This document shows, piece after piece, positions 17,300 through 54,973 of a stretch of 64,000 nt of DNA. Where the stretch lies: NCBI RefSeq assembly GCF_000244895.1, contig NZ_CM001441.1, positions 5,174,198 to 5,238,197 of the forward strand. The letters are read 5' to 3'. Both the position numbers and the translations under genes were made by a program. Position 1 is the stretch's first letter; the number at the start of each line of letters is the position of its first letter. Source of the stretch: Desulfosporosinus youngiae DSM 17734. Its GTDB lineage: Bacteria; Bacillota; Desulfitobacteriia; Desulfitobacteriales; Desulfitobacteriaceae. The notes below the pieces were generated by a model, which saw only the letters and a list, made by a program, of their open reading frames with translations, made no database searches and was not told the DNA's origin.

Positions 17300-17323
17300 G
17301 CGCTGAAAAAAGACCCGCAAGCA

Positions 17324-17556
17324 GGGCAGCTTCTCCCACAGGAGTAAACTCATCGCATGGAGAGGCAATAAAAGCCCACAAGCCGGTGCGGGGACACGGA
17401 GCCACAGGTTCACAAGGTACTACCCGGAGGTTTGGCGTAGTCCCGCACCGGCGGGTGGGCGAGCCTCGGAGTGCTGAGTTAACGGATGTGGGAGAAGCTG
17501 CCCGACCCGGGAGTACTCCCGTTTTCATCCTTTGCTGACGCTGTGACAGCGGCATG
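17324..17556 (+). ncRNA. structured interspersed element, copy A (possible non-coding RNA)
   Basis: The outer stem 17324-17340 pairs perfectly over 17 bases with 17487-17503. Nested inside are GAGGC/GCCTC, GCCCAC/GTGGGC and CCGGTGCGGG/CCCGCACCGG, giving a long rod. The apical part holds GGTTCACA, CCCGGAGGTTTGG and, after the rod, CGAGCC. A short hairpin module ending CAGCGGCATG follows (17524-17556). A diverged copy lies inverted at 48.0 kb with a compensatory change in the outer stem. No open frame with protein-like content covers it. Architecture and isolated GC-rich context recall ORF-less HEARO/omega-RNA-like elements, but that assignment is a guess. Confidence 0.55.
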
Positions 17557-17570
17557 AGTCTAAAATATTA

Positions 17571-31167: not shown

Positions 31168-31725
31168 CTAAGCTCTTCTGTATTGGGCTTTACCAATTTC
31201 ATAAAGATTATTTCCTTCATGATCAATGATCACCATCACCGGGAAATCTTTGACGACCAAACGTCGTACCGCTTCCGGTCCCAGCTCCGGATAAGCAATA
31301 ACTTCGGCTGAAACAATCCGTTTGGCAATGAGGGCGCCTGCTCCGCCGATTGCCCCAAAGTAGACGGCCCCGTATGTCTTCATGGCGTCAATCACCTCCG
31401 GAGCACGAAGTCCTTTGCCGATCATGCCTGTTAATCCTTTGGCAATCAGCTTTGGGGAATAGGCATCCATTCGCCCGCTGGTTGTTGGCCCGGCTGAACC
31501 GATCACCTGCCCTTCCTTGGCTGGTGTCGGCCCGACAAAATAGATGATTTGTTCATTCATTTCAAAAGGAAGGTCTTCCCCCCGCTCAAGAGCCTCAAGC
31601 ATTTTCTTATGAGCAGCATCCCGCCCGGTATAAATTACGCCGTTAATCAGAACATTGTCCCCGACTTTCAGAGCTTTAAGCTTCTCTTGGGTAAGCGGGG
31701 TTTCTATGCGGATAACCTCACTCAT
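31168..31725 (-). CDS. class I fumarase-type hydratase, beta subunit (fumarase or mesaconase)
   Basis: 185 residues; ATG 31725 follows GGGAGGGAAGG and overlaps the alpha-subunit stop by four bases. 'VGPTTSGRMDAYSPKLIAKG' and 'AVYFGAIGGAGALIAKRI' are the beta-subunit motifs of two-subunit class I fumarases and L-tartrate dehydratases. With the alpha subunit it forms an oxygen-sensitive iron-sulfur hydratase. Because it closes a cluster with glutamate mutase and methylaspartate ammonia-lyase, hydration of mesaconate to (S)-citramalate is a likely job; fumarate/malate remains possible. Confidence 0.85.
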   Translation of the reverse strand: MSEVIRIETPLTQEKLKALKVGDNVLINGVIYTGRDAAHKKMLEALERGEDLPFEMNEQIIYFVGPTPAKEGQVIGSAGPTTSGRMDAYSPKLIAKGLTGMIGKGLRAPEVIDAMKTYGAVYFGAIGGAGALIAKRIVSAEVIAYPELGPEAVRRLVVKDFPVMVIIDHEGNNLYEIGKAQYRRA

Positions 31726-32582
31726 TTGCCTTCCCTCCCTTGCAGCGTGATTTCCTTGTGACGTGTTGCATGACAATTAATGTTCACCGCAACCGGCATT
31801 CCGGCAATATGGGTGGGATATACCTCCAAATTGACCGCCAGGGCAGTTGTAAGTCCTCCAAAACCTTGAGGACCAATTCCTAACCGATTAATGCGGTCTA
31901 ATAACTCTTCCTCAATTTTAGCCAGCCGCTCCTCAGGATTATGGTTTCCCACTTCCCGCAATAAGGCCTTTTTAGCCAAGAACGTCGCTTTTTCCATGGT
32001 TCCGCCTATACCAACGCCGACAATAATGGGAGGACATGGGTTTCCACCCGCCCGGTCAACCGTGTCCACGACAAATTGCATGGCACCCTCAAGGCCCTCA
32101 GATGGTTTGCACATTTTAAGGCCTCCCATATTCTCACTGCCAAAACCTTTGGGTGCCACAACCAAATGCAGAGCGTCTCCGGGGACAATATCATAATGAA
32201 TCACCGCCGGTGTATTATCCCCCGTATTGACCCGCTCAAAGGGATCTTTCACAACGGATTTGCGCAAATATCCTTTATCATAACCACGGCGTACTCCCTC
32301 ATTAATTGCCTCAGTGAGACTCCCGCCGACGACATGCAGGTCCTGACCGATACTTACAAAAAGGACCGCCATTCCAGTGTCCTGACACATTGGAACCTGT
32401 TCCGTCCGGGCTATTTCAGCATTCTCAATCAGCCGTTCCAGCACCTCCCGGCCTAAGGGTGAAGGCTCATCCTTCAAAGCTTGGTGAAACCCTGTCATGA
32501 TATCCGAACCCAAGTTATAATTGGCGTCAATACAGAGCTTTTCAACGGCTGAACTAATTTCTTCCGCCATTATTTCTTTCAT
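31722..32582 (-). CDS. class I fumarase-type hydratase, alpha subunit (fumarase or mesaconase)
   Basis: 286 residues; ATG 32582 is preferred for GGAGG 6 bases ahead. Three cysteines expected to hold the 4Fe-4S cluster are visible: 'VPMCQDTG', 'GGLKMCKPSEG' and 'GGNPCPPIIVGVGIGG'. It is the catalytic-cluster half of the two-subunit class I fumarase family. Family members act on fumarate, mesaconate or tartrate, so the substrate must be taken from context, which here favours mesaconate. It lies 136 bases after the citXG gene. Confidence 0.88.
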   Translation of the reverse strand: MKEIMAEEISSAVEKLCIDANYNLGSDIMTGFHQALKDEPSPLGREVLERLIENAEIARTEQVPMCQDTGMAVLFVSIGQDLHVVGGSLTEAINEGVRRGYDKGYLRKSVVKDPFERVNTGDNTPAVIHYDIVPGDALHLVVAPKGFGSENMGGLKMCKPSEGLEGAMQFVVDTVDRAGGNPCPPIIVGVGIGGTMEKATFLAKKALLREVGNHNPEERLAKIEEELLDRINRLGIGPQGFGGLTTALAVNLEVYPTHIAGMPVAVNINCHATRHKEITLQGREGK

Positions 32583-32717
32583 TGGCTGCCTCCTATCCAA
32601 GTTTGTTTTCTAATTCCTTTGAACTCCTTACTCTGCACGGAGCAGGTATTCCGAATATTCTTACAGGTTGTTCTCATTTTACTCCACTGCCAACCTCAGA
32701 ACAAGGCATTCGAAATT

Positions 32718-34106
32718 CTATATCTTGGAAACATTCTTACTTTCCATATATTCTTCTAATAAATACAGAAAAACCGTTACCCCTAATAAATCCGCACTGC
32801 CTCCGGGACTGATATTACGTTTGCAGAAATCCTCGTTCATAGCTTCGATCCCTTTCAGCCCTTGAAGAGTCTTTACGCCCCCGATGGAAAGAATATAGCC
32901 GGCCTTATCCTGAACTTCCTTTAATGTCTCAAAGGAATGCCGATGCAGAATAGTTGAATCCTCGCAATGCTGCATAATAGCGAGAAGGGTTTGGATTAAC
33001 CTGGAATTTTGGCTTAACCCTTGATTTTCTTTGTAAAACCCCAGCGAAAAATCGAACACCGTGGGCAGTCCTCTCTCAACCTCTCCTCGTATTCCTTCAA
33101 CCTTATGGTTTAAGAACAGTCTCTCTCCATGGGTCAGCGCGAAAACATCCACCTGTTCTCCTATTCTGAACCCGCTGTATCTTGACCTCAGCTCTCTCTC
33201 GACCAAACCCTTGGTCATCTCTTTAATCAGACCTTGTAAGGACGAGAAGTTTAAGCCGCTGTAGAGTGCTTTTCCTCCGGCGGCACAGCAAATACCCAGT
33301 AAAAAAAACATTCCCTTACAGGTATTTACGCCTGAGGTTTTTTGAAGCATTTGCTGTTCACCCACTTGTCCGATTCGCCTTATTTCCAGGAAAATATCCT
33401 CCGGGGACTTTGGGGAAAACCCGGCCTTTGCACAATGTATTAAGGGTTTTATCAGAGAAGCGGCACTATCCAGGAACGTAAAGTAATCCATATCTTGATG
33501 AGCACCCCTGGATTCTTTGGATACCAGCCCGGGAGACGGACTGCAGGAGACCTCGTAGAGCATGGCTTGAACCGCAAGACCAGCTATATCCAGTGAGTAG
33601 GTTTCCTTCTTATAATTCTGATAGGTATCCTTAATGTATTGAATGACCTCAGACTCCCTATGCCGTCTTGACCTTACACAATGATGAGCATCCTCAGCAC
33701 ACAGATAGCATTTCCGGCTTGGATATCCGAGTTCTTGCCGGCTTAAGCTTTTGCCCAAAGAATCATAGACATCAATATCTAAACATCGTCCCAGACTATG
33801 GTCTTCCTCCAGGCCAATGGCTATCTTTTTCAAACTGGCAGCTTCTTGATTGACCGCCGCGTAGAAAATTGGTCCTTCTGCGCCTTGAAGCACACTCTTG
33901 CTCCAAATCTTATTCTGCAGCAGAGTGCAAATTACCGGTGTCATGTCCTTTATGAGGTTAACCGTTAGATCATTGGTTTTCTTCAGTCCCGGATAATTGA
34001 CTCTCATCACTAAGAGCGGGGTATTATAACGTTTCAAAAGGCTTTCAATGAGCGCAGCCCTTTTCTCCCTGGCTTCCAGGAGATCCCCGGCAGTATATTC
34101 CTTCAT
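32718..34106 (-). CDS. citXG: CitX-CitG fusion: lyase prosthetic-group synthesis and transfer
   Basis: 462 residues, the length of known CitXG fusions. The N-terminal about 170 residues match CitX ('REKRAALIESLLKRYNTPLLVMRVNYPG' and 'GRCLDIDVYDSLGKSLSRQELGYPSRKCYLC'), which transfers the triphosphoribosyl-dephospho-CoA group to the acyl-carrier subunit. The rest matches CitG ('EVSCSPSPGLVSKESRGAHQDMDYFTF', 'SGVNTCKGMFFLLGI' and 'SPGGSADLLGVT'), which makes that prosthetic group from dephospho-CoA and ATP. Only citrate-lyase-type enzymes need it. It starts three bases after citC. Confidence 0.9.
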   Translation of the reverse strand: MKEYTAGDLLEAREKRAALIESLLKRYNTPLLVMRVNYPGLKKTNDLTVNLIKDMTPVICTLLQNKIWSKSVLQGAEGPIFYAAVNQEAASLKKIAIGLEEDHSLGRCLDIDVYDSLGKSLSRQELGYPSRKCYLCAEDAHHCVRSRRHRESEVIQYIKDTYQNYKKETYSLDIAGLAVQAMLYEVSCSPSPGLVSKESRGAHQDMDYFTFLDSAASLIKPLIHCAKAGFSPKSPEDIFLEIRRIGQVGEQQMLQKTSGVNTCKGMFFLLGICCAAGGKALYSGLNFSSLQGLIKEMTKGLVERELRSRYSGFRIGEQVDVFALTHGERLFLNHKVEGIRGEVERGLPTVFDFSLGFYKENQGLSQNSRLIQTLLAIMQHCEDSTILHRHSFETLKEVQDKAGYILSIGGVKTLQGLKGIEAMNEDFCKRNISPGGSADLLGVTVFLYLLEEYMESKNVSKI

Positions 34107-34109
34107 CGT

Positions 34110-35174
34110 TCAGTGCGGAGAATCACTTCTTTTTATTTTCTCCGCAATCTCCCTTCCCTGGCATGTCTTTAAAAATTCTAAGGTAACTTCCGGCAGAAGA
34201 CCGCTTAGATCAGGAATCGTCTCCTTCTTCAGCAGGCTTCTGACCAGCGAAGCACTGATCGCCGTCTCACCAAAAGCCTTTCTCTTAATTTCAATCAGTT
34301 CAACCCCATAGGCAGGCAGCACCCTTTTTAAGGTCTCATTATAGACCTTCGTAGCCGGACAATAGGGTTCCTCTCCCACATATCTCTTCATGATGTTAAA
34401 GGCTTTACCAAAATACTTCCCGAAAATGGAGGAATCTAAGTCTGCATAAACCTTTAGTCTTTCCCCCTCTTCCCTTAGAAAGTAAGAAGGAAAGGTAGTG
34501 GCTGAGATCATATACTCCCCACTTGGCAGGACCTTAACATTCTTCAAATGTGCAGCTCCCCGGGAAACCAGTTCAAGCCTGGTTGCAAAGGGAAAGAGTG
34601 ATTTATCCTCCTCAACAATGAACACCAGAAGCTCTGCATTATCTTTAGAAGCTTCTTCAATTAAGAATTGATGGCCGAGGGTGAATGGATTACAGTTCAT
34701 TACCAAAGCCGCCTTTTCCCCATCCCCAATCCCATAATTCCTTTTCATTTCCTCTAACGCCTGACGGATATGATAAGCTCCATTTTCTAAAAGTGCGGCT
34801 TCCCCATTGCAATGGATCAGTTTGAAATTTAACGATGAAAAGATAGGAACCTGGGCGGGCTTGGTAAATACAAAAAAATGGCAGATCCCTTGACGAAAGA
34901 GTTTATCGATTAAAGCGGAAACCAAGGCAGAGGCTATTCCCTCCCCCCTCAGTTCATCTTTAACCGCAAAACACTTTAGAACATTTTTTGCCGTCGAACA
35001 GGTTGCGACAATAGCAGAACCTTGCGCCGACGGATTCCACGCCCCGTCTCTTATGACGAGCGTATAGTCCGCATCCTGATCCAGGACTAAGCCAAACTCC
35101 CGGAGAAAGGCGTCTACCTCTTCCCTTTCGTTCCGATTCCTGAGATTTACCTTTTCCATATGAGCGCCGTACAT
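34110..35174 (-). CDS. citC: lyase acetyl ligase CitC ([citrate (pro-3S)-lyase] ligase)
   Basis: 354 residues; ATG 35174 with AAGGAG. The N-terminal GNAT-like part ('FAVKDELRGEGIASALVSALID') and a nucleotidyl-transferase part with 'NCNPFTLGHQFLIEEA' and 'ISASLVRSLL' match CitC. It acetylates the thiol of the lyase prosthetic group with acetate and ATP, switching the enzyme on. Citramalate lyase of clostridia needs the same activation, so the gene does not decide the substrate. Confidence 0.9.
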   Translation of the reverse strand: MYGAHMEKVNLRNRNEREEVDAFLREFGLVLDQDADYTLVIRDGAWNPSAQGSAIVATCSTAKNVLKCFAVKDELRGEGIASALVSALIDKLFRQGICHFFVFTKPAQVPIFSSLNFKLIHCNGEAALLENGAYHIRQALEEMKRNYGIGDGEKAALVMNCNPFTLGHQFLIEEASKDNAELLVFIVEEDKSLFPFATRLELVSRGAAHLKNVKVLPSGEYMISATTFPSYFLREEGERLKVYADLDSSIFGKYFGKAFNIMKRYVGEEPYCPATKVYNETLKRVLPAYGVELIEIKRKAFGETAISASLVRSLLKKETIPDLSGLLPEVTLEFLKTCQGREIAEKIKRSDSPH

Positions 35175-35229
35175 ACTTATTCTCTCCTTGCTTCCCCTTA
35201 ATAGGACTTTGCGTCAAAGACGCAAAGGT

Positions 35230-36768
35230 CTACTTCACCTTCCTCACAACATCAATAACACTGCCATCCCGATACTCTACGACAGCGACAATCTCATCAG
35301 AGGGTTCAATAGCCTTCGGAATCCCGGTGATTGTTTCGGCCAATCCCTTCAATTCCTTGATCGTCATCAGGGGAAGCTTTGTCCTTCTTAATCTCTCAAG
35401 CAAATCGGTTCGTTGCGGATTGACAGCGATTCCCCGTTCTGTAACCAAAACATCAACACTTTCTCCCGGGGTTGTAACTGTCATCACCTTATCTTTGATG
35501 ATGGGGAGTCTGGCCTTCATTAAATTCGTTACCACAATTGCCAGCTTAGACCCTGCGGCTGTATCGCTGTGCCCGCCGGAGCCGCCCATGATGACTCCAT
35601 CCGAGCCTGTTGTAACATTTACATTAAAGTCTGTGTCGATTTCAGTCGCTCCCAGAATCATGATATCCAGATGGTTAACGACTGCTCCTTTAGTATGAGG
35701 GTTGCCGTACATAGAAGCCGACATGAATTGGTGGGCCGGATTGTCTCTATAAGACTGTATGGCTTTTAAGTCAAAGCATTGGACATCAAAGAGAGTTCTA
35801 AAAAGCCCTTCTTCCAGCATTTCTACAAGATATCCTGTAATTCCGCCGGAAGCGAAACTGCCAACCACTCCTTCCTGCCGCATGATCGTTTTCAGCTCCG
35901 CTGCCACCGCCAGAGAGGTTCCGCCTGCTCCGGTCTGAAAGGACATTCCTTCCCGGACTAAACCGGAGGCTTTAATCACTTCAGCTGCTCTTTTGGCGAT
36001 AATCAGCGCTACCGGATCCCTGGTGATTTTTGTAGTCCCTGAAACAATACCCTTAGGGTCCCCGATAGAGTCAACCTCCACCACGTAATCTATGAAAACC
36101 TGGCTGATTTCAATAGGGCAGGCGGGGTAGGGCACTAAATTATCCGTAATAGCGATGGTTCTATCGGCATACTCCGCATCCGCTGCCGCGTAGCCTAAGG
36201 ACCCACAAGCAGACTTACCATAAATCCCATTAATATTTCCGTAAGTATCCGCCGTAGGTGCCGCCAGAAAGGCGACATCGATATGCAGATCTCCGCTTTC
36301 TATAGCCCTTGCTCGTCCGCCATGGGTTTGCATGACCGCCGGTTTCTTCAATTTACCCTTGGATACAGCTTCCGCTACAGGACCGGACATATAATTTGTA
36401 ACCAGACCGGTTACCACTCCCTTTTCCATATGCTCAACCAGGGGAGCATGAACCGGGAAAATCGAGCTAGCCGCAACAGTCAGGTCCTTAATCCCTCTTG
36501 CGGCCAAGCTTTCCATAACCTTATTTAAGATAAAATCTCCATTTCTTAAATGATGGTGAAAGGAAATCGTCATTCCATCGGTGATGCCTAGTTTATCTAA
36601 AGCTTCATCCAGACCGGGCAGAACCTTTTCATGATTAGGGATTACACTGGTCAGCTTTGCTGCGGTCCGGGTTTTCGTCCCCACATCACTAAAGGCCCCT
36701 TGAAAAGGCTTAACCGGCCCATAACCCTGGATATAATCGGGAATTTCTCTGCCTGATATACTTGTCAT
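35230..36768 (-). CDS. citF: citrate- or citramalate-lyase alpha subunit (CoA-transferase type)
   Basis: 512 residues, normal length. 'GMTISFHHHLRNGDFILNKVMESLA', 'TGAGGTSLAVAAELKTIM' and 'GGSGGHSDTAAGSKLAIV' are CitF motifs. The subunit swaps the acetyl group on the carrier for the substrate, giving the acyl-thioester. ATG 36768 overlaps the citE stop. Close neighbours (mutase, ammonia-lyase) suggest that citramalate is the real substrate; no citrate carrier is present. Confidence 0.92.
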   Translation of the reverse strand: MTSISGREIPDYIQGYGPVKPFQGAFSDVGTKTRTAAKLTSVIPNHEKVLPGLDEALDKLGITDGMTISFHHHLRNGDFILNKVMESLAARGIKDLTVAASSIFPVHAPLVEHMEKGVVTGLVTNYMSGPVAEAVSKGKLKKPAVMQTHGGRARAIESGDLHIDVAFLAAPTADTYGNINGIYGKSACGSLGYAAADAEYADRTIAITDNLVPYPACPIEISQVFIDYVVEVDSIGDPKGIVSGTTKITRDPVALIIAKRAAEVIKASGLVREGMSFQTGAGGTSLAVAAELKTIMRQEGVVGSFASGGITGYLVEMLEEGLFRTLFDVQCFDLKAIQSYRDNPAHQFMSASMYGNPHTKGAVVNHLDIMILGATEIDTDFNVNVTTGSDGVIMGGSGGHSDTAAGSKLAIVVTNLMKARLPIIKDKVMTVTTPGESVDVLVTERGIAVNPQRTDLLERLRRTKLPLMTIKELKGLAETITGIPKAIEPSDEIVAVVEYRDGSVIDVVRKVK

Positions 36769-37658
36769 CTTGCTACTACCTCGTCACTGATAAGTCCCAG
36801 TCTGATGCCCTGACCGACCATGCAGGTTGCTCTCTGGATGACCGGAGCATCGATCATTTTTCCATCCAGGGAGCAGCATCCTTTGCCTTCCTTTTCCGCT
36901 TCCTCCATAGCATCCAATATTCTCAAAGCCTGTTTTAGCTCGGCTTTTGTGGGGGCGAAGACGGAATGAATCGTCTCAATCTGTCTTGGATTAATCGCCG
37001 CTTTACCGGTTAGACCCAAACCCTTTGCTTTAGCCGTATCCTTTTCCAGACCTTCATAATCGTTGATGTCTGTAAACGGAGTATCGATAGCATCCACCTT
37101 TAAAGCCCGGCACACGGTTGCTACTTTATTACGGGCATAAAAGATTTCTTGTCCCTCTTTGGTGCGTTCTATGCCCAGATCCGCCGTCAAATCTTCTCCT
37201 CCCAGCAGCACCCCAACCACTCGGCTGGAGGCCTTAATGATGTTATAAACATTTTCCAGACCCAGCGCGGTTTCTATCAGCGCCATGATTTTAATGCTCC
37301 CGGTCGTAAATCCTTCTTCTTTTTCTATTTTGTCGAGCAGTTGGGCCACCAGGCCAATACCTTCTTCATTGGCTTTAGGAATCAATAAGGTGTCCGGTTT
37401 TACCCGGGCAATCATCTCCACATCCTGAGGTCCAAATTCCGTATCTAAGGGATTTACTCTAACCACCACTTCCACCTGTGAGTAATCGATGGCTTTAATC
37501 CCTTCCCGGACTAATATTCGGGCACTATCTTTCTCCGTCAGACTTACTGCATCCTCTAAATCTAAAATGATGGAATCTGCTCCGAGGATCCCTGCATTTT
37601 GAAGCATTCCCGGGTTATTTCCCGGCATAAATAACATCGTTCTTCTCAACGTTTCCAC
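36765..37658 (-). CDS. citE: citrate- or citramalate-lyase beta subunit (CitE)
   Basis: 297 residues; GTG 37658 with AAGGTGG. TIM-barrel HpcH/HpaI-type lyase: 'LRRTMLFMPGNNPGML', 'ILDLEDAVSLTEKDSAR', 'IKIMALIETALGLENVYNI', 'LLGGEDLTADLGIERT' and 'KAAINPRQIE'. It cleaves the substrate-thioester into acetyl-carrier plus oxaloacetate (from citrate) or pyruvate (from citramalate). It overlaps citF by four bases; a 155-base gap separates it from citD, more than usual. Confidence 0.92.
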   Translation of the reverse strand: METLRRTMLFMPGNNPGMLQNAGILGADSIILDLEDAVSLTEKDSARILVREGIKAIDYSQVEVVVRVNPLDTEFGPQDVEMIARVKPDTLLIPKANEEGIGLVAQLLDKIEKEEGFTTGSIKIMALIETALGLENVYNIIKASSRVVGVLLGGEDLTADLGIERTKEGQEIFYARNKVATVCRALKVDAIDTPFTDINDYEGLEKDTAKAKGLGLTGKAAINPRQIETIHSVFAPTKAELKQALRILDAMEEAEKEGKGCCSLDGKMIDAPVIQRATCMVGQGIRLGLISDEVVAR

Positions 37659-37813
37659 ATTTAAACCACCTTAAGTAAGATACTTTATAATACTTCATTC
37701 TATAGCTTAACCCTGCCGTTTACACCAGAAACAACTTAACTTTGAATCTCACTATAGCATTTAACCTATTGCAATCGGTTTATTATGCTTGGCAATTCAT
37801 TTTGACAATTATG

Positions 37814-38089
37814 TTAAATCGCTCTGCTAATCGCAGTTTCGACCCGGGCGGCTATGGTATAATCTAAAGCTCCCTTGTCCTGGGCCTTAATCCATATGCC
37901 CTCAACGCCCATTTCCCGCACCTTATGTAAAATCACTTGCTCGATGACATCCCCGAATTGCTTCATAACGATACTTTCAAGTTCGAGTTCGATTTTTCCG
38001 CCCTCATTAGGCCGAACCATTATCAAAATATCATTCGACTCCAGGGTCCCCGCTTTAGCCGCTTTCGTTATGTTTATGTTCATGTTCAT
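37814..38089 (-). CDS. citD: citrate- or citramalate-lyase acyl-carrier (gamma) subunit
   Basis: About 91 residues; ATG 38089 behind GAGG. 'KAAKAGTLESNDILIMVRP' holds the serine (S18) that takes the phosphoribosyl-dephospho-CoA arm. The family's acyl-carrier fold length fits. It is first of the cit series (D, E, F, C, XG). Confidence 0.9.
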   Translation of the reverse strand: MNMNINITKAAKAGTLESNDILIMVRPNEGGKIELELESIVMKQFGDVIEQVILHKVREMGVEGIWIKAQDKGALDYTIAARVETAISRAI

Positions 38090-38146
38090 ACTCACCTCAA
38101 ATTCTAAGGATTGTTGGGGGCAGCCTATTTAGCCTGCCCAAAAAAT

Positions 38147-38190
38147 ATTCCGAACTCTCGTCATTATATCAAATGACAAGGGTTCGGAAT
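38147..38190 (-). terminator. terminator after carbonic anhydrase
   Basis: ATTCCGAAC...GTTCGGAAT stem with an inner GTCATT/AATGAC pairing; the minus strand continues ATTTTTTGG. It separates carbonic anhydrase from the cit genes, so citD should have its own promoter. Confidence 0.75.
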
Positions 38191-38248
38191 ACTCTGCGGA
38201 TCGCGTGATGCGAGCCTTTTCTAATATTTTCTGAATTTAGTCAGATAA

Positions 38249-38878
38249 TTAGTTAGATAATTCAAAGGCTCCATTTTCATAGTTAAAAATAAAAACCTCT
38301 CCCGTTTCAATCATGTAATAGAAGCCATATATATTCAGCTCTTTTTTTAGATACTTCTCTTTAATATAAGGGTAGGTTAAGAGATGTTTAATTTGTTCCA
38401 GTATGTTTATTTGCTCGGTTAACCATTCCTTCATGTATTTGTCGTTTTCGTCTTTTAAATGGATCATAACCCTCTTCTTAACATTCTCCGCCAATTCAAG
38501 CCATTTTTTAGTATCTGGCAGCGTATTGAGAATATCCTCGGAGTAATAAATTGCCGCACACCCTCCACAATTAGAGTGGCCGCAGACAACAATATTTTCT
38601 ACTTTCAGAGCCTTAACAGCATACTCAATCGCAGAGGTCGTCGCTACATATTCCTGATGGGTTTCCCGATAAGGGGGAACAAGGTTGGCGACATTTCGAA
38701 CCACAAACAATTCTCCCGGTAAGGATTTCGTGATCATTTCCGGCATGACACGCGAATCGGAGCAGGCAATGAATAACGTATGGGGTTCCTGTTTTCGTTT
38801 TAATTTGCTAAACAGCGTTTTATGCTTTTCATAATCCTCTTGTCGAAATTTAATCAGCCCATCCAGTAATCTCTGCAT
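38249..38878 (-). CDS. beta-class carbonic anhydrase
   Basis: 209 residues. Zinc ligands C39 ('FIACSDSRV'), H101 and C104 ('VCGHSNCGGC') and the D41-R43 dyad are present. It interconverts CO2 and bicarbonate in the cytoplasm. ATG 38878 follows GGAGG. It lies between two halves of the fermentation cluster and could serve CO2 handling after pyruvate oxidation. Confidence 0.92.
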   Translation of the reverse strand: MQRLLDGLIKFRQEDYEKHKTLFSKLKRKQEPHTLFIACSDSRVMPEMITKSLPGELFVVRNVANLVPPYRETHQEYVATTSAIEYAVKALKVENIVVCGHSNCGGCAAIYYSEDILNTLPDTKKWLELAENVKKRVMIHLKDENDKYMKEWLTEQINILEQIKHLLTYPYIKEKYLKKELNIYGFYYMIETGEVFIFNYENGAFELSN

Positions 38879-39320
38879 ATGAGTCGACCTCCAAAAAATT
38901 TCTGCATAATTCTTAATTTGTTACATCTTGCACTAACTCAATTATAAGGCCTCTTTACTGAAAATGGGAGTCTTTTTTAAGGGTTTGTTATTATGTTTTC
39001 TTATTATGGTGATTTTATTTCCAAATCTCTTTCTTACTTATCGTGGTTTTTTATATCTATCTTTATAGAAATCTCTCTTTTCCCAGCTCTTTGCCTTATC
39101 CGGTTATTTCCCTCAGGCATGATAAGTTCCACATTATAAAGGTTAGGATATTGCCATCATTAACACCTCTTATGTTAATTACTGGCAAGTCCGGCGGGTA
39201 TACCTGAAATCTCTTGATTGCTCAACCTGCACAACACCGCGCCGCGCGCTGGGAGCGCGCGCCTCAGGGATTAGGCTTCCTGTTTGAGGATGGACAGCGT
39301 CTTATGACAAAATCCTTCGT
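38879..39320. other. 442-base gap inside the fermentation cluster
   Basis: Very AT-rich and T-rich on the plus strand from 38960 to 39180; then a small GC-rich hairpin GCGCGC-TGGGA-GCGCGC at 39244-39260 near the end of the activase gene. I see no frame, tRNA or recognised riboswitch. Confidence 0.4.
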
Positions 39321-40118
39321 TCAGTCTTGAGCCGCGTAGGCGCAGCATCCGATAGCTCCATTGAACTGGGGCTCCTGAGGTATCACGATCCTTCGGCCTG
39401 ACCCCTTCTCCAAAAGCCTGCCTACTGCACGATTGTGCGCAACACCGCCGGTAAAGACAATGACCTCTCCCGGGAATGAACGCAAAAGCGGCAAAATCCG
39501 TTTGACAATGGTTGTGTTAACCCCAGCCGCCAGTTCAGCCAGCGGAAACCCTTCGACAATTTTACCGATCAGCTCACTTTCACCGAACACGGCGCATGTA
39601 GAATTCAGCTCCACGGGAGCATCGGTATATCCCCCCAGCTCCTGGAGAGGCAGATCAAGGATCGTCGCCATATTCTCCAAATAACGTCCGGAAGAAGCCG
39701 CACACTTATCGTTGGTCAAAAAGTCGATCATTCTGCCCTTGCGGACTTGAATAATTTTACTGTCCTGCCCGCCCAGATCAACCAAGGTAAAATCCTTGAG
39801 ACCCGTCTGATAAATCGCACCCAAAACATGGGCCTTAAGCTCAGGAATCGCCTCACCGCCGGCTAATTCCAAGGTGTTGCGGCCATATCCTGTGGAAATT
39901 AAGCTGTCGACTGCAGGTAAGCCCAGAGCCTCGAAATTTACGGCTAGTTTATCTCCCTGCTTTCGTCCGTACTCCCGGTAGAAACGGATGGTATCCAGAC
40001 TCTCCAGCCGCAGGATTTCCAGACCCCCATCCTCTCCCTCCGCCTTTCGCCCCATGAGAGCAATTTTCACACTCCGGCTCCCCAGATCAATCCCGCAAAT
40101 GGTTTGTTGTCCTGACAT
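39321..40118 (-). CDS. 2-hydroxyacyl-CoA dehydratase activase (ASKHA, 4Fe-4S)
   Basis: 265 residues. ASKHA nucleotide motifs 'CGIDLGSRSVKIALM' and 'TLVDLGGQDSKII'; the two cluster cysteines are in 'TNDKCAASSGRYLENMA' and 'NSTCAVFGESELIGKI'. The dimer holds one 4Fe-4S cluster and uses ATP to push one electron into a partner dehydratase. The partner is the next gene upstream at 40179. Related pairs also serve benzoyl-CoA reductases and double-cubane-cluster proteins. Confidence 0.9.
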   Translation of the reverse strand: MSGQQTICGIDLGSRSVKIALMGRKAEGEDGGLEILRLESLDTIRFYREYGRKQGDKLAVNFEALGLPAVDSLISTGYGRNTLELAGGEAIPELKAHVLGAIYQTGLKDFTLVDLGGQDSKIIQVRKGRMIDFLTNDKCAASSGRYLENMATILDLPLQELGGYTDAPVELNSTCAVFGESELIGKIVEGFPLAELAAGVNTTIVKRILPLLRSFPGEVIVFTGGVAHNRAVGRLLEKGSGRRIVIPQEPQFNGAIGCCAYAAQD

Positions 40119-40178
40119 GATATCCCAATCCTTCCGATCTTGTTTCCTTTATTGCTGCCTTCACACTAAAGACCTCTC

Positions 40179-41192
40179 TTAATCCCCAATCATACTTAAG
40201 AAAGACTCCAACCTCATTTTATTCCGGGCATCGAGTCCCGTCGGATTTTCCCCTTCCAACGTAAGAATCGGGAAGTCCAACCTTTTTCTGATAATCTGAT
40301 CTTCTATCTGACGATAGCAAAAGCTTTGGGTATAGTGGATGATTCCGTCCAGATGACGAAGCTCAGCTTCTCTGGCGATATCCTCCAGACGTAAAAACAC
40401 CTTATAAGGATAGGTGTATAAGCGATACTGTTCCACTATATCATCCGTCTTAAAAGGCATCGCAAACTGCCTCTGCACTTCATTAAAGACAACTCTGGCT
40501 CCGTGGTCTTCCAGAAAATCGTAGAGCTCGGGAAAAATCGGCGGAACCCCAATATATCCAAGGCGTATTTCCCGCTTTTTCCTGCGCGTTCCGGGCCGGG
40601 AGCGCTCTGAAAAAGGCTCCCGTGCAACCGCTTTCTGAATAAATTCCTCCATCTCGCGGGCAAAGCCCTCAGGATCACCATTAAAATCGGAACACGAGAC
40701 CAGGTAGAGGTGGTTTTCAAAACCGCTTACCTTATTTTCCTCCCAAGTCAGTCGATCAATTTCCCAGGCTAAGGCCCGAACCTGATCGAGGCGTTTCTTT
40801 TGAACCTGCACATCCTCCCAATTTGTACCTAACACATTAATTAGCTTATCCATCTGGAGACGAAGCATGTCCGGATCACGGTCATAAGGAAAAGCAAAGG
40901 GGATGATTTCGATCCCCTCTACTTCCCAAGTCTCCATTAAAGCATGGGTGTTGCTGCAATCCCCTTGAGTTACGGCAACTATGTGCTGAATCTCTGGATT
41001 TTGCAGGGCCGTCGAATACAATCCCTTAATCCAACCGCACACATTTCGTGGAAAGCCTGCCAGTTCTGCTTCTTCCAAGCGACGCATTGCTTCCGGACTC
41101 GTAATAAATATATTGTTTAAATCAACCGGCCTATCTCCTGCTGCATAAATCACTTCAACCGGGACCGTGGTTGTTAAACCGATTTTTCTCAT
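40179..41192 (-). CDS. 2-hydroxyacyl-CoA dehydratase / double-cubane protein family member
   Basis: 337 residues; HgdB/FldC-like fold with 'FPRNVCGWIKGLYSTAL', 'VTQGDCSNTHALMETWE', a lone 'VSCSDFNGDPEGF' and 'GIIHYTQSFCYRQIEDQIIRKRLDFPILTLEGE'. The cysteines suit an iron-sulfur cluster. It appears as a single subunit where true dehydratases have two, so it may be a double-cubane-type reductase or a partner acting elsewhere. The starting 'MRKIGLTTTVPVEVIYAAGDRPVDLNN' is typical of this stand-alone subgroup. It sits 60 bases from mal and from the activase. Confidence 0.8.
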   Translation of the reverse strand: MRKIGLTTTVPVEVIYAAGDRPVDLNNIFITSPEAMRRLEEAELAGFPRNVCGWIKGLYSTALQNPEIQHIVAVTQGDCSNTHALMETWEVEGIEIIPFAFPYDRDPDMLRLQMDKLINVLGTNWEDVQVQKKRLDQVRALAWEIDRLTWEENKVSGFENHLYLVSCSDFNGDPEGFAREMEEFIQKAVAREPFSERSRPGTRRKKREIRLGYIGVPPIFPELYDFLEDHGARVVFNEVQRQFAMPFKTDDIVEQYRLYTYPYKVFLRLEDIAREAELRHLDGIIHYTQSFCYRQIEDQIIRKRLDFPILTLEGENPTGLDARNKMRLESFLSMIGD

Positions 41193-41252
41193 GTTCTTGT
41201 CTGCTCCTTTAGCCGTCTGCTTTGTTGGTGTCCTCTTATTCCAACGAGTCTG

Positions 41253-42497
41253 TTATCTCACACCCCTTTTCAACACAGCCAGCGTCCTATTCATCTCATT
41301 GTGTACGATCATATACCCTTCATCCACTCCCATACCGGGCTTGGCAAGCATTTGATCCGGACGGGCAGCCAGGGCTACATGGACTGCTGTTCGGCCGCCG
41401 GAATCCGTTTCATTGCAGGATCCGCCCACATAAGCTCCTACTCCGTATTTCCTGGCGTAGATAACTGCTTCAATTGTGTTTTGAATCCCGCCCAGATCAG
41501 GGGTTTTAATTTGAACCATATCGGCAGCTTGAGCATCAACAAACTTGACAATATCTTCATAAGTATTACACCACTCATCGGCCACGATTTCCACCTTGAC
41601 TCCCCACGCCTTCAAGGCAGCCCGCAAGGCTTTAAGCTGTTCAATTTGTCCTTTAAGGCTCCCGGCATCCATCGGACCTTCAATCCGTAAATGCAAGGGA
41701 GCCGCCGCTTTTTCCAGCTTCACAAAGTATTCGACCATCCGCTCCACATCATCCTCAAAAGCCAAGCCAATCGTACCGTAGACATCAATGTGCAGGACAG
41801 GCCGGTAATCATCCCCGCCCAAAGTCATAATCCTGTTGCGCAGCCACTCTACATAGTCTAAGAGCAATTCCCCATTTTTGCCCAGCTTTGTCTCCACATT
41901 ATTGATCAAAGCGTGGGGCAGAACCCCGGCACGTTTTATAATTGCCTTATCGGCATTTTCATAGCGGTCATCTCCGGTTTGAGTAAAAATCGGAACAGGC
42001 TCAAGAATCAGCGGAAGCTCATATTCCTCCAGGATCACTTCGGTCATGGTCTTTCTCTGAGCTTTTGCCACTCCATCAAGAATCGCCTGACTCACCCCAT
42101 AGCGAATCGCCGTATGATAAGGTTCCCCATTCTGCCGCTTTAAGTTTTCAACCAGACCCGCCAGACTGCGGAACGAATCCAGTTCCCGGCCTATCAGCTT
42201 AGGTGCAATTTCTTCAAGAATGATTGGAATAAAATCTTCAGCTAAAAAAAGCGGATCCCGGCCGCCGGCTCCTGAGTATTGAACAGCCGCACAATCCCCC
42301 GAGGCGACTTGCCCATCTTCTAAAATAAGCATCACTGAAATCGACTCGCCCCGTTGACGAACCGCCTTAAATCCCGCTGTTTTAGGTTCTCCGAGATAAG
42401 TAAAACCATCATGACCAACGCCTGATTTAATGGCAAGCTGGTCATCGAAATAAAAACCCGTAAGCCCCGGTGAAGCAATAACGTCAATAATTTTCAT
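41253..42497 (-). CDS. mal: methylaspartate ammonia-lyase
   Basis: 414 residues, enolase superfamily. Metal ligands fall exactly at D238, E273 and D307 with catalytic K331 ('QIKTPDLGG'), the same numbering as the clostridial enzyme as I recall it; a histidine in 'LPHALIN' (195) fits the partner base. It removes ammonia from (2S,3S)-3-methylaspartate to give mesaconate. It lies 29 bases after mutE in the glutamate mutase operon. Confidence 0.95.
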   Translation of the reverse strand: MKIIDVIASPGLTGFYFDDQLAIKSGVGHDGFTYLGEPKTAGFKAVRQRGESISVMLILEDGQVASGDCAAVQYSGAGGRDPLFLAEDFIPIILEEIAPKLIGRELDSFRSLAGLVENLKRQNGEPYHTAIRYGVSQAILDGVAKAQRKTMTEVILEEYELPLILEPVPIFTQTGDDRYENADKAIIKRAGVLPHALINNVETKLGKNGELLLDYVEWLRNRIMTLGGDDYRPVLHIDVYGTIGLAFEDDVERMVEYFVKLEKAAAPLHLRIEGPMDAGSLKGQIEQLKALRAALKAWGVKVEIVADEWCNTYEDIVKFVDAQAADMVQIKTPDLGGIQNTIEAVIYARKYGVGAYVGGSCNETDSGGRTAVHVALAARPDQMLAKPGMGVDEGYMIVHNEMNRTLAVLKRGVR

Positions 42498-42526
42498 TAT
42501 ACATTCCCTCCTTTGTTAGAACAGCT

Positions 42527-43981
42527 TCACCCTCTTGGGCGGCCAACAAGCATTCCTTTGCCTATGGCGTAGATGTCATCGATCACCATTTGGAAGGAAG
42601 GATCGCGGTCTTCATCCCGTCCGCGCTGGGCGATGCGTTCTTGATGAAACTCCTTGATTTTTTCATCGAAGGGGATATTTCCGAAATCCAATAAGCGTAC
42701 AGCTCCTGCGGAGTCACGGGCCGGGAGGATTTTACCGGCATTATACCGGCTTGGGGCAAACGGGACATCAATGACCCCGGCCTGAAAGGCCCGAACTGTG
42801 CCGACAGCGGCATCTCCTTCTCCTAATTCGAGGACCCGGTCAAGAATTAACCTCGTTTCCGCTAAGATCATTTCCTCTTCTAAGGCAAGCTCTGCAGTCA
42901 TAGGCAGAGTTTGGTCTTTCAACATGGTTAGTATCTGTTTCGTAGCACGAATTCCTGCTGCATTAGCTTCCTTAGTAGGGATCCCTAAGGCTTCATGAGG
43001 GGATTTTACGATGACTTTGGAGGCCTTGCCTAAGGCTGCCGTCGCCGCTCCCCAGGATATGACTCCAAAAGCTTTGGCCTCATCCTGGGGGAAACCGCCC
43101 ATCCATTGATGAAAGACTGTCGTAATCATAACCTTTGGCAAGCCTAACTTGGCTAAATATTCTTCCGCCAGAACCGGCAAGGTATGCAGTGCCGCAACAT
43201 CCTGAATAAGATTGCCGCATTGTCCGTACCCGAGGGTCATACTGCGGACACCCTGAGCGGCTGCGAGAATCCCTTCAATAACCGCAACAGCATGAGAAAT
43301 AGCCGGCGGAACCAGCGTCCCGGTCAAGGGACCGAAGGGTTCGCGGTTGATCTTTACCCCTTGTTCTTCATAAAGCCCGATCAGACGGTCCACGTACTGC
43401 CAATACTTAATCGTACTTTCAATCGAAACATCTTTAGAATAGGGAATATTGTAGGAAATCCCGCCGCCTTCGTAATCCGTAAATCCTCCGGCAAGGGTAA
43501 TTTCGGCCAGCAAACGGGCATCCGGAGTGCCGTGGCGAACCTGAACCGGCACCTGAACACTTTCTACCACTTGACGACAAGCCGCTACTCCATGATTGAC
43601 CGCCGGAAATCCATTGAGCATGGAGCGGCCAATGGCAGCACTTTCTTCAATTCCTGCCTGCGCTTCCGGGTAACGATTTTGCCGGGTATACGAATCGATG
43701 GTGGACGGCAGGAAATCAGCCCCGCCTTCATCTTGAAGAAAACGCAGCAGCTCAATATGCTCACTGAGGAGGGCAACACCTGCACGCGGCTGAGCAAAGG
43801 TGATCCCTTTTGCTTTGCCCTGGGCGAGTTTTTCGGCAAATATTTTGCTTTTGGGCAGAGATTTATGGTACGCCACTGCTTCCTCAAAGACCACATCTTT
43901 ACCGGTCTGCCATTGCCCCAAGACTTCCTGCCGCTGGCGCTGAAATTCTTCGGCGTCCATTTGTCGGACTGTTAATTCCAT
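42527..43981 (-). CDS. mutE: glutamate mutase catalytic subunit E (methylaspartate mutase epsilon)
   Basis: 484 residues, normal length, TIM-barrel. '[36 protein letters not shown]' and '[42 protein letters not shown]' are strongly conserved. With MutS and coenzyme B12 it rearranges L-glutamate to 3-methylaspartate. Operon position: 13 bases after mutL. Confidence 0.96.
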
Positions 43982-47926: not shown

Positions 47927-47999
47927 ATTAATAGATCGCTTGGAGCGGGCAGGCCTAGGGGTCCTTCTGCATGTTTTTAAGCCTTTTTCAGGGTAAAAG

Positions 48000-48240
48000 C
48001 CCCCCCATGCTGCTGTCGCAGCCACCGGCAGAGGATGAAAATAGGTCGCCTGGGTCAGGCAGCTTCATCCACATCCGCTTACCGCAGCATTCCGAGGCTC
48101 GCCCACTCGCCGGTGCGGGACTTCGCCAAACCTCCGGGTAATACCTGATGTGAACCCGTGGCTCCGTTTCCCCGCACCGTCTTGTGGGCTTTTACCGCCT
48201 CTCCATGCAATGGGTTCGCTTCTGTGGACGAAGCTGCCCT
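48000..48240 (-). ncRNA. structured interspersed element, copy B (inverted relative to copy A)
   Basis: Outer arms 48058-48073 and 48223-48238 pair over 16 bases with one G-U. Nested stems and the GGTTCACA, CCCGGAGGTTTGG and CGAGCC signatures match copy A at 17324. Compared with A, position 11 of the outer stem changes C-G to U-A and position 10 changes U-A to G-U, so pairing is kept. A hairpin module with GCTG-CGA-CAGC at 48005-48042 also matches A. Confidence 0.55.
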
Positions 48241-48295
48241 GCTCACGGGTCTGGGGATCCTCTGCATGTCTATTGGGTCTTTAATTTTTCAGGTT

Positions 48296-48339
48296 AGCTG
48301 TCCATGCCGCTGCCGCGGCACCAGCAGAGGATGAAAAAG
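48296..48339 (-). repeat. third copy of the short hairpin module
   Basis: CATGCCGCTG...CAGCAGAGGATGAAAA repeats the module at 48005-48042 and, in reverse, at 17524-17556. The bases before it (48250-48295) also align with 47952-48000, so the 300-base unit appears tandemly repeated. Confidence 0.55.
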
Positions 48340-48349
48340 ATTCCACAAA

Positions 48350-48700
48350 GCCTTAGCAGACCCCCAAAGTTCTGCTTACATTCCCAACAAACTGGCTGAA
48401 GGAGCGCTTGTCTGCTAAGCGGATGCGTCGGTGGAGCCGCGCTAAGGCGAGCGCAGATGATTCGCGTCCCCGTAGCGCGCCGCAGGTTCACATGCGACGG
48501 AACACGATGTTCCTAGTGCCGCATGCGCCATGGATGGTATAGCATGCGGCCAGAAATATCCAGAGGTTCGTACGCGCTCGCGAACCGTCCAGCGAGCCAG
48601 CGGCGGAACTCGCAGACGCGTGCAGATCGAAGACACCGTCGACCCACGGGTTAACACAGCTGAAAAGCGCTCTGCCCCAGAGCCGGATAGCAGAACTGGC
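48350..48700 (+). ncRNA. GC-rich structured region, diverged element C
   Basis: Contains GGTTCACATGC (48489), CCAGAGGTTCG (near 48557) and GTCCAGCGAGCCAGCGG (near 48577), the same motifs in the same order as the element at 53.6 kb. A 10-base inverted repeat CTTAGCAGAC/GTCTGCTAAG lies at 48352/48410. Composition is far more GC-rich than the neighbours. Open frames here look like translated repeat, not protein. Confidence 0.4.
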
Positions 48701-53492: not shown

Positions 53493-53752
53493 TTTCACAA
53501 GACCCCAAATGAATTCCTAACCTACCCTCATTCTCATCCTCAACGACGACCAGAAATTAAGGGGTAATTGCTAAGTGAACACTTTAGTGGAGTTCACGAT
53601 ACAGCGAGTGCCGATGCTGAAGGGTTATTACGCTCGGGTTCACATGCAGAACAACCCAGAGGTTAGCGTAATACCTTCAGCATCCAACGAGCCAGTGAAC
53701 GGGAACGTGTGTGAACGTGCAATTCCCCCTTAATTTCACAAGACCCCAAATG
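53493..53752 (+). mobile_element. MITE-like structured element (copy D) between 19-bp direct repeats
   Basis: Direct repeats TTTCACAAGACCCCAAATG at 53493-53511 and 53734-53752. Inside, near-perfect inverted ends AATTAAGGGGTAATTGC (53555-53571) and GCAATTCCCCCTTAATT (53719-53735). The core has a 20-bp stem (GATGCTGAAGG..TATTACGCT) around CGGGTTCACATGCAGAA, CCCAGAGGTT and, after the stem, CAACGAGCCAGTG, the motifs of elements A-C. No coding capacity; it fills the 323-base gap between the CWB2 and ABC genes. Confidence 0.55.
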
Positions 53753-53755
53753 GAT

Positions 53756-54973
53756 TTACTCAAATCTCAGAGCATCAATCGGATCCATGGCTGCAGCCTT
53801 CCTGGCCGGAAAGACCCCGAAGATAATGCCGATAGCCGCCGAGAAGCCGAAAGCCATAAATACTGAAGTCACAGAAATACTGGTATCCATTGCTAAGACT
53901 TTTCCAGCCAAGTTAGCTCCTCCATAACCGAGGGCAATGCCTATGCCGCCTCCTAAGATACTGAGCACAACGGCCTCGATAAGGAACTGCAGTAAAATAT
54001 CCCTGCCTTTCGCCCCGATCGCTTTGCGGATTCCGATCTCACGAGTCCGTTCTGTGACCGAAACCAGCATGATATTCATGATTCCGATGCCGCCCACCAG
54101 CAGCGAAATCCCGGCGATTCCGCCAAGGAGCATGGTCATGGTTTGAGTAACGCTTTGCATGGTTTCCAGCATGTCGGCCTGATTCTGAATCCTGAAGTCG
54201 TTCTCTTTGCCATCCTGGATCTTATGTGCTTTGCGCAAAGCTGCTGTGATCTCATCTTGGGCCGTTTGCATCAGATCCTCGGAAGTCGCTGAAACCAGAA
54301 TACTGCGCACGGTCTTCTTTCCTATTAAACGTGCCTGAATCGTAGAGATCGGAGCGGTAATCAAGTCATCATTGCTCTGAAAGCCTGTCGAACCTGTAGC
54401 TGTTGTCACTCCAATGACTTGAAAGGGGACATTATTGATTTTAATATTTTTCCCGACGATATCAGCGTTGGCATCTCCCATTAGAGCTTCCACAACGTTC
54501 GGTCCAAGAACAGCGACTCTGGCGCTGCTATTCACGTCCTCCTGGGTAATAAAACGTCCCCTGGCCATTGTGACATTTCTAATAATCTCATAGTCGGCAG
54601 TGGTTCCATTAATACTTGCGGAGGTGTTGCCGGACCCCAAGACCACTTGGGCATTTGTACTTGTCAGCGGCGCGACGGCTTTCACTGCCCCTCCGACTTT
54701 AATCTTGGAAACATCCGTCATGGTTAAGCTGGCTGAGCTGCCTGCTCCCCCATTAACCCCTCCGGTATTGGTTTGCCCCGGGCTGATCGTAAGCAGGTTA
54801 GACCCCATTCCCTGAATCTGGGAAGTGATCGAAGCGGTTGCTCCATTTCCGATACCTACCATGGCAATGACCGCAGCCACTCCAATAATAATCCCCAGCA
54901 TCGTCAAGGCGGACCGCAGTTTGTTCGCCCGCAAAGCCCTGAGAGAGACCCGGATACTTTCTAAAAAGTTCAC
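53756..54973 (-). CDS. MacB-type ABC transporter permease
   Basis: 405 residues. One N-terminal helix ('[30 protein letters not shown]'), an extracytoplasmic MacB_PCD domain (about 45-250) and three C-terminal FtsX helices ('[42 protein letters not shown]'). It forms a mechanotransmission-type exporter with the ATPase next to it (four-base overlap) and the adaptor upstream. Likely exports a peptide, antibiotic or signal. Confidence 0.93.

Follow-up and report, generated by a model that had tools for sequence, protein, structure and literature searches.

What is a rod-like hairpin that recurs, in opposite orientations, within one stretch of a Desulfosporosinus genome? The stretch analyzed here, referred to below as the window, comprises 64,000 nucleotides of Desulfosporosinus youngiae DSM 17734 (contig NZ_CM001441.1, positions 5,174,198 to 5,238,197 of the forward strand), and an earlier note on it had described two such elements as a structured repeat family with covariation and a candidate non-coding RNA. 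According to our analysis, they belong to a genuine, large, structured and dispersed family, which is ordinary in kind, being an interspersed repeat, and unusual in how deeply its structure is conserved and in the lack of a mobiliser that could be identified. On balance, and with modest confidence, we read the family from its sequences as an old, non-coding and non-autonomous one that is probably mobile, is almost wholly confined to the class of Desulfosporosinus and would be recognised via a folded single strand.

The conserved unit is a single rod of about 175–185 nt, with an outer stem whose sequence can be almost anything, nested helices that internal loops separate, and a near-invariant apical domain; the rods of the host genome span 180–188 nt by end-finding. 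Both elements of the window lie in the opposite orientations reported for them (scores are those of two covariance models, R1 and R2, which carry the tip helix in the register GAGCC/GGTTT, later replaced by GCCA/TGGC):

17324-17503, + strand: rod of copy 1, 180 nt, with a 17-bp outer stem, nested helices and the apical motif GGTTCACA..AGGTACTACCCGGAGGTTTGG (R1 195 bits, R2 167.5 bits)
48057-48239, - strand: rod of copy 2, 183 nt (R1 212.2 bits)

The first element had been given as 17324-17556; its start is that of the rod, but the rod stops at 17503 and the remainder is a right-hand trailer. The folding energy is -111.4 kcal/mol for copy 1 (z -10.1) and -103.2 kcal/mol for copy 2 (z -8.0), and for neither was any of 200 shuffles equally good. 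From copy 1 to copy 2 the 17-bp outer stem shows the two differences noticed earlier, U-A to G-U and C-G to U-A, and its terminal pair differs as well (G-C in copy 1, G-U in copy 2). The loop motifs GGTTCACA, GGAGGTTTGG and CGAGCC, which had been described as fixed, are kept in both copies; copy 1 is without the letters TC after GGTTCACA, which are present there in nearly all other members. Since the window copies alone are two sequences, covariation is not provable from them, and it is the family that supplies it.

Members of the family, among them homologues from related genomes as the earlier note had recommended, were scored in two alignments. In alignment A1 (MAFFT, 23 sequences, not structure-fitted, with the structure taken from copy 2, itself one of the rows), both-side changes occurred in 28 of the 61 pairs, against 12.5 in shuffles, and none of 500 shuffles reached as high a value. 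Alignment A4 (50 sequences of the families f1 and f3) was fitted to the model, and such fitting favors structure; there, both-side changes were found in 53/61 pairs against 40.8 in shuffles, 90.5% of the cells stay paired, and the covariation score is 0.547, compared with 0.199 in shuffles and 0.058–0.119 in slid controls. All 17 pairs of the outer stem had both-side changes in A4, with 94% of cells paired; the stem varies yet stays paired, and thus the termini are conserved as pairing and not as sequence. By contrast with this free sequence, the apical columns GGUU-n-AC-n-UCAGGUA-n-UACC are 94–100% conserved in the same alignment. A variant tip, GGUUCACAUGCAGAA..CCCAGAGGUU, is found in members of the family f4, some rods of which depart from it, and in a third window member described below. 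By inspection, the internal loops are of types that we take to be the purine 3x3 (GGA/GGA type) and the tandem G-A motifs. The claim of a structured repeat family with covariation is therefore strongly supported, by the folds of the two copies and by both alignments.

The reverse strand of copy 1 folds nearly as well (z -9.9), because any near-palindrome would; as both strands fold, the strand was judged instead by the asymmetry between G-U and A-C pairs and by model scores. In pairs with a Watson-Crick majority, G-U was counted 115 times and A-C 47 times (binomial p 9e-8 with relatedness ignored; helix 4 and pairs with a G-U majority are left out of the count). Among 55 inspected pairs, with those of G-U majority again skipped, some G-U occurred in 37 and some A-C in 21. 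The cmsearch score of copy 1 is 195 bits on the + strand and 55 on the - strand. These sequence asymmetries point to one folded strand as the one that matters; they would look the same for an RNA as for folded single-stranded DNA. Of the proposal of a non-coding RNA, the one-strand structure thus stands, whereas the choice of RNA over single-stranded DNA does not follow from these data.

Single copies tell a less strict story than the alignments. Rare states at paired positions in 57 plain copies of the window's genome comprised 33 broken pairs, 28 one-side changes that still pair and 13 compensated changes. The pair is kept in 41 of 74 cases, where random single changes would keep it in 36% (transitions 4:1) or 18% (no bias), so there is some constraint on single copies, and the covariation is best read as selection acting mainly on master copies.

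The family is large and its distribution narrow. A DNA search of the 5,660,978-base (5.66-Mb) host genome gave 48 matches, and a covariance-model search, in which 150 of 999 candidates were scored, gave at least 103 at E<=0.001; without one opposite-strand duplicate, these matches correspond to 102 places, a lower bound, or about 100. At the order level the family was found in 46 of 73 genomes and at the class level in 55 of 82, including the family f4, where a genome can have as many as 29 matches. In a sample of the phylum, 11 of 398 genomes had a match, ten of them within the class; the sole genome outside it (G284, 1 of about 380) has three weak matches with a best E=1.8e-7. A pattern scan of named genomes hit 29 contigs, 27 from Desulfosporosinus (one a metagenome-assembled genome, MAG), one from Paradesulfitobacterium and one from a Clostridiales MAG, and a tighter pattern in the same scan hit none. 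No family match was obtained in 2/29 genomes of the genus (G016 and G023, both drafts) or in several other genera of the class. None of the Rfam 15 models matched the rods tested, and no description of this family was found among open-licence PMC papers.

In two species of the genus, the copies mostly occupy different positions. For the comparison of the host genome (G000) with G003, 20 loci of 36 scored matches were fetched; at least 8 of them share a neighbor gene with an element locus of G000, and these 8 were compared. In two pairs of loci (L221/L114 and L222/L131), G003 lacks the G000 copy at the matching place. Elsewhere the elements lie on different sides of the common flank or gene (L220/L120, L217/L154), have opposite orientations (L226/L174) or differ by several hundred bases or more in their distance to the common gene (L231/L182 and L216/L124, with one far-off gene each); in L234/L164 side and orientation are the same, and the edges have no recognizable common sequence. 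At L131/L222, the junctions fit an insertion whose left flank resembles CCTTTACACT and whose right flank resembles TACTTAATAA; a few bases there do not align. At the site of window copy 1, G003 likewise has no copy, though the neighboring tRNA-Leu(tag) is kept there, and no match was obtained in the loci of any of 13 relatives including G003 (searched to about 1.5 kb past the gene wherever the contig was long enough; not all of these loci keep the tRNA-Leu neighbor).

The orientation of the rods to their neighbor genes is even: among 91 rods (10 E-type rods, described below, and one matching from inside the stem are left out), the arrangement was same/same in 35 and opposite/opposite in 31, with 14 and 11 in the other two classes. 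Cis-regulation of the neighbors was rejected on the lack of orientation preference in these counts. The neighbor genes come from a crude caller of open reading frames (ORFs), and 21/91 rods overlap a called ORF of >=90 codons; some of these ORFs, or many, may be false calls. A protein-coding reading was likewise rejected, as a 131-codon ORF over copy 1 had no Pfam match and the lengths of 180–188 nt do not go in threes.

Candidate partners were sought as protein families, Y1 in 73 genomes and RVT_1, TnpB, IS110 and IscB in 23 each, the latter picked as copy-rich or copy-poor and including several drafts. None of these five families was present in every copy-rich genome searched. The Y1 transposase (Y1_Tnp) had three matches in G000 and none in the copy-rich, single-contig genomes G003 and G034; TnpB, which a reRNA element would need, had none in G003, G034, G061, G032, G066 and G077; and the IS110 transposase had none in the single-contig genome G007 or the drafts G032 and G066, in which 24–35 rods were matched. 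The reverse transcriptase RVT_1, on which a retroelement with a group II-type enzyme would depend, was found in 19/23 genomes and not in G077, a draft of about 70 contigs with 25 rod matches. The IscB domain RRXRR occurred in 3/23 genomes and was absent from 20, the host genome included (0 matches). The mobiliser may have been lost after the spread of the family, or different hosts may have had different mobilisers.

A fold that is kept together with a near-invariant tip implies that something recognizes the folded strand. In the mobile-family reading, an enzyme acting in trans would recognize this strand, as a transcript or as single-stranded DNA, and copies would spread in this way; recognition would go through the apical domain and the internal loops and not through a fixed terminal sequence. 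A bolder form of the proposal, which we advance only tentatively, is that of a mobile RNA specific to the class, as a bacterial counterpart of short interspersed nuclear elements (SINEs). Its sole heritable content would be the folded rod with its invariant, putatively protein-binding tip, and it would be copied into new sites by machinery that reads the structure of the RNA and not an end sequence of the DNA.

Several observations weigh against mobility. No copy examined carries a gene and no mobiliser was identified; as for vehicles, plasmids had no copy by blastn and viral contigs had none by a search with one exact pattern. Many single copies are decaying, with 33/74 rare paired-position states broken. 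The low-copy loci L343 and L344, from two genomes of one genus, have near-identical flanks, so that some copies persist at their site; this is possibly an ancestral or domesticated locus. Finally, the rod edges (65 rows in four groups) show no copy-specific duplication: the flank scores of a copy's own left and right sides (5.47, 5.38, 5.36, 5.27) resemble those between different copies (5.86, 5.52, 5.09, 5.03). A duplication-like flank, a 23-nt direct repeat, was seen only at the third window member, which also has a 19-nt terminal inverted repeat that is 95% complementary:

53555-53735, + strand: third window member, divergent, with the apical variant GGTTCACATGCAGAACAACCCAGAGGTT (R2 75.4 bits, E=2.6e-15)
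53493-53515, + strand: 23-nt direct repeat on its left
53734-53756, + strand: 23-nt direct repeat on its right, 96% identical to the left one

The persistence of L343 and L344 also bears on the main rival explanation, namely that the rods are a non-coding RNA of the host (a decoy or protein binder, for example, or an element of mRNA processing or stability) that was much duplicated and is kept for its function. Such an RNA would account for the near-invariant apical loop, for the strong covariation across genera and two families, for the excess of rare states that keep the pair and for genomes with one or few copies (one in G037, two in G039). It accords poorly with some 100 copies in even orientation to genes, with sites that mostly differ between two species of the genus and with the lack of matches in the two drafts of the genus and several other genera of the class; moreover, no common promoter or terminator was visible by eye beside the rods L087, L089 and L092-L094. 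We consider this explanation unlikely, though it deserves to be kept in mind.

The sequences around the rods bring in the next rival. Copies of the host genome have an A-rich leader that starts with YTAYYC|TGAAAAA; in their trailer, a small hairpin (..GCCGCnnnnGCGGCATG..) is followed by a CTACTC end. Leader start and trailer end are alike, so the end of one copy resembles the landing site of the next, and by pattern another right end lies directly upstream of 29 of the 75 copies with a recognizable leader (17 of 92 have no leader anchor). In the window, the following parts were recognized:

17303-17323, + strand: leader of copy 1, short (CTGAAAAAAGACCCGCAAGCA); about 45–66 nt in many other copies
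17504-17562, + strand: right trailer of copy 1, with a GACCC motif, TTTTCATCCTTTGC, a hairpin ending in GCGGCATG and a degenerate CTAYTC end
48240-48292, - strand: leader of copy 2 (CTGAAAAATTAAAGACCC...CAGACCCGTGAGCA)
47992-48056, - strand: right trailer of copy 2, outer end approximate
48293-48338, - strand: right-end module (TTTTTCATCCTCTGCTGGTGCCGCGGCAGCGGCATGGACAGCTAAC) directly 5' of copy 2, which thus lies immediately 3' of another right end

Within the host's family, leader and trailer mark the main subfamily (that of Desulfosporosinus, with several G061 and G034 copies) and were not seen beside the f3 rods L087, L089 and L092-L094. In the same vein, GACC flanks the rod on both sides in 12/15 rows of Desulfosporosinus and in 14/24 rows of G034, G061, G062 and G032, and in none of the 11 rows of the divergent L084-L094 set (five f3 and six f1, of which four are from the window's genus) or the 15 rows of L331-L346.

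Set against the anatomy of IS200/IS605- and REP-type elements, the leader/trailer subfamily is similar in its hairpin near the right end, in the target-like sequence at both ends and in the tandem arrangement. The rods could accordingly be elements of this type, with a trans-acting Y1 transposase that moves them in the form of single-stranded DNA. The right-end hairpin before CTACTC, the target-like YTAYYC at the left end, the copies directly 3' of other right ends and the similar leader and trailer beside several G061 and G034 copies are all what this would predict, as is the lack of a target duplication at the one clear empty site (L131/L222); the one-strand asymmetry fits folded single-stranded DNA as well. 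However, the copy-rich, single-contig genomes G003 and G034 are without a Y1_Tnp match, and the class-wide unit is the rod and not an end hairpin: hairpin and CTACTC were seen neither beside the same f3 rods nor within 40 nt of further rods, including the L343/L344 set. Nor is there a strand bias between the chromosome halves (24/22 and 21/25 of 92 rods, with the origin assumed near coordinate 1). This mode of transfer therefore appears improbable for the family.

Less probable still is a miniature inverted-repeat transposable element (MITE) derived from a DNA transposon, the terminal inverted repeats of which would be bound as duplex DNA by the transposase of an insertion sequence. The rods are short, mostly intergenic and of high copy number, with terminal inverted pairs of about 17–19 nt, and parts of PMC3049150 discuss BOX and similar bacterial repeats as MITEs. 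In the rods, however, the sequence of the terminal stem is free as long as it pairs (17/17 pairs with both-side changes), which is the opposite of what a duplex-binding transposase needs; the rod edges lack duplications, and the one-strand asymmetry is unaccounted for.

The idea of HEARO/omega-RNA elements without their nuclease gene, raised in the earlier note, and with it that of IS110 bridge-RNA elements, is very improbable, since for all the likeness in size (about 180 nt), structure and dispersal the HEARO model fails on the rods although it works in this clade, the host genome has no IscB domain, the IS110 transposase is missing from the copy-rich G007, G032 and G066, and the loops are constant between copies and not guide-like. 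HEARO/IscB omega-RNA (RF02033) is also a dispersed structured RNA of about 200 nt tied to mobile elements, and it is excluded both by model, in the Infernal search against Rfam that had been suggested, and by partner. There was no HEARO match in the window at the gathering score (83), none around copy 1 up to E=10 and none in the rod loci L065, L284 and L331; as a positive control, loci beside IscB-domain genes in two related genomes matched with 118 bits (L329) and with 72 bits, below the gathering score, at E=3e-13 (L330).

Among the known interspersed repeats considered here, the closest parallel in behavior is BOX of Streptococcus (boxA-boxB-boxC), described in PMC3049150 as short multi-copy repeats for which an RNA fold is predicted, whose middle module can be missing or repeated and for which no mobiliser has been established. 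The rods differ, by description and by the Rfam scan, in a near-invariant apical loop and in compensatory changes that preserve the fold across genera and two families. ERIC is likewise a single long stem-loop and interspersed; as far as it is presented in parts of PMC2267715, it is about 127 bp long, comes from E. coli, Yersinia pestis and Vibrio cholerae and is said to affect neighbor-gene expression via RNA hairpins in Yersinia, so that by description alone it differs from the rods in length and hosts. As repeats of this kind, the rods are short, non-coding, multi-copy, foldable and intergenic, apart from the 21/91 that overlap ORFs of the crude caller. Bacterial repeats of this small, interspersed kind are often regarded as MITEs in decay; in this family, compensatory change has preserved the fold over much of a class. 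The family is easily scored with the models built here, and a genus with both copy-rich and copy-poor genomes provides a setting in which to find its partner.

The rods are also modular. Cassette I (about 65 nt) sits after GGTTTGGC and cassette II (about 41 nt) before GGATGTGG, both at fixed sites. In 92 rods (the E-type rods left out), 57 had no cassette, 9 had I only, 8 had II only and 18 had both, so that the two co-occur above expectation (Fisher p 4.5e-7). At about 1304-1370 of L236 (G003), a locus without a rod match, cassette-II-like repeats (ACACTGTCTTCG...TCTTGCAG) occur twice; judging by these repeats outside any rod, the cassettes may form a repeat family of their own, nested in the rods.

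Ten E-type rods lie 130–190 bases upstream of an ordinary rod, all 10 pointing away from it, and model matches in this arrangement were also found in G006, G011 and G021. The eleventh such pair is that of window copy 2:

48399-48639, + strand: divergent partner rod of the E type, inverted and carrying an internal insert; it lies upstream of copy 2 and points away from it (R2 34.6 bits, E=3e-6)

Two side observations concern neighboring sequences. A 6S RNA (Rfam RF00013, 64 bits; L065:451-637, - strand) lies about 0.9 kb from a rod, with no sign of a link. Within the window, the region 31722-43981 holds genes matching an Fe-S fumarate hydratase, a citrate lyase ligase and alpha subunit, an acyl-CoA dehydratase activase and methylaspartate mutase E.
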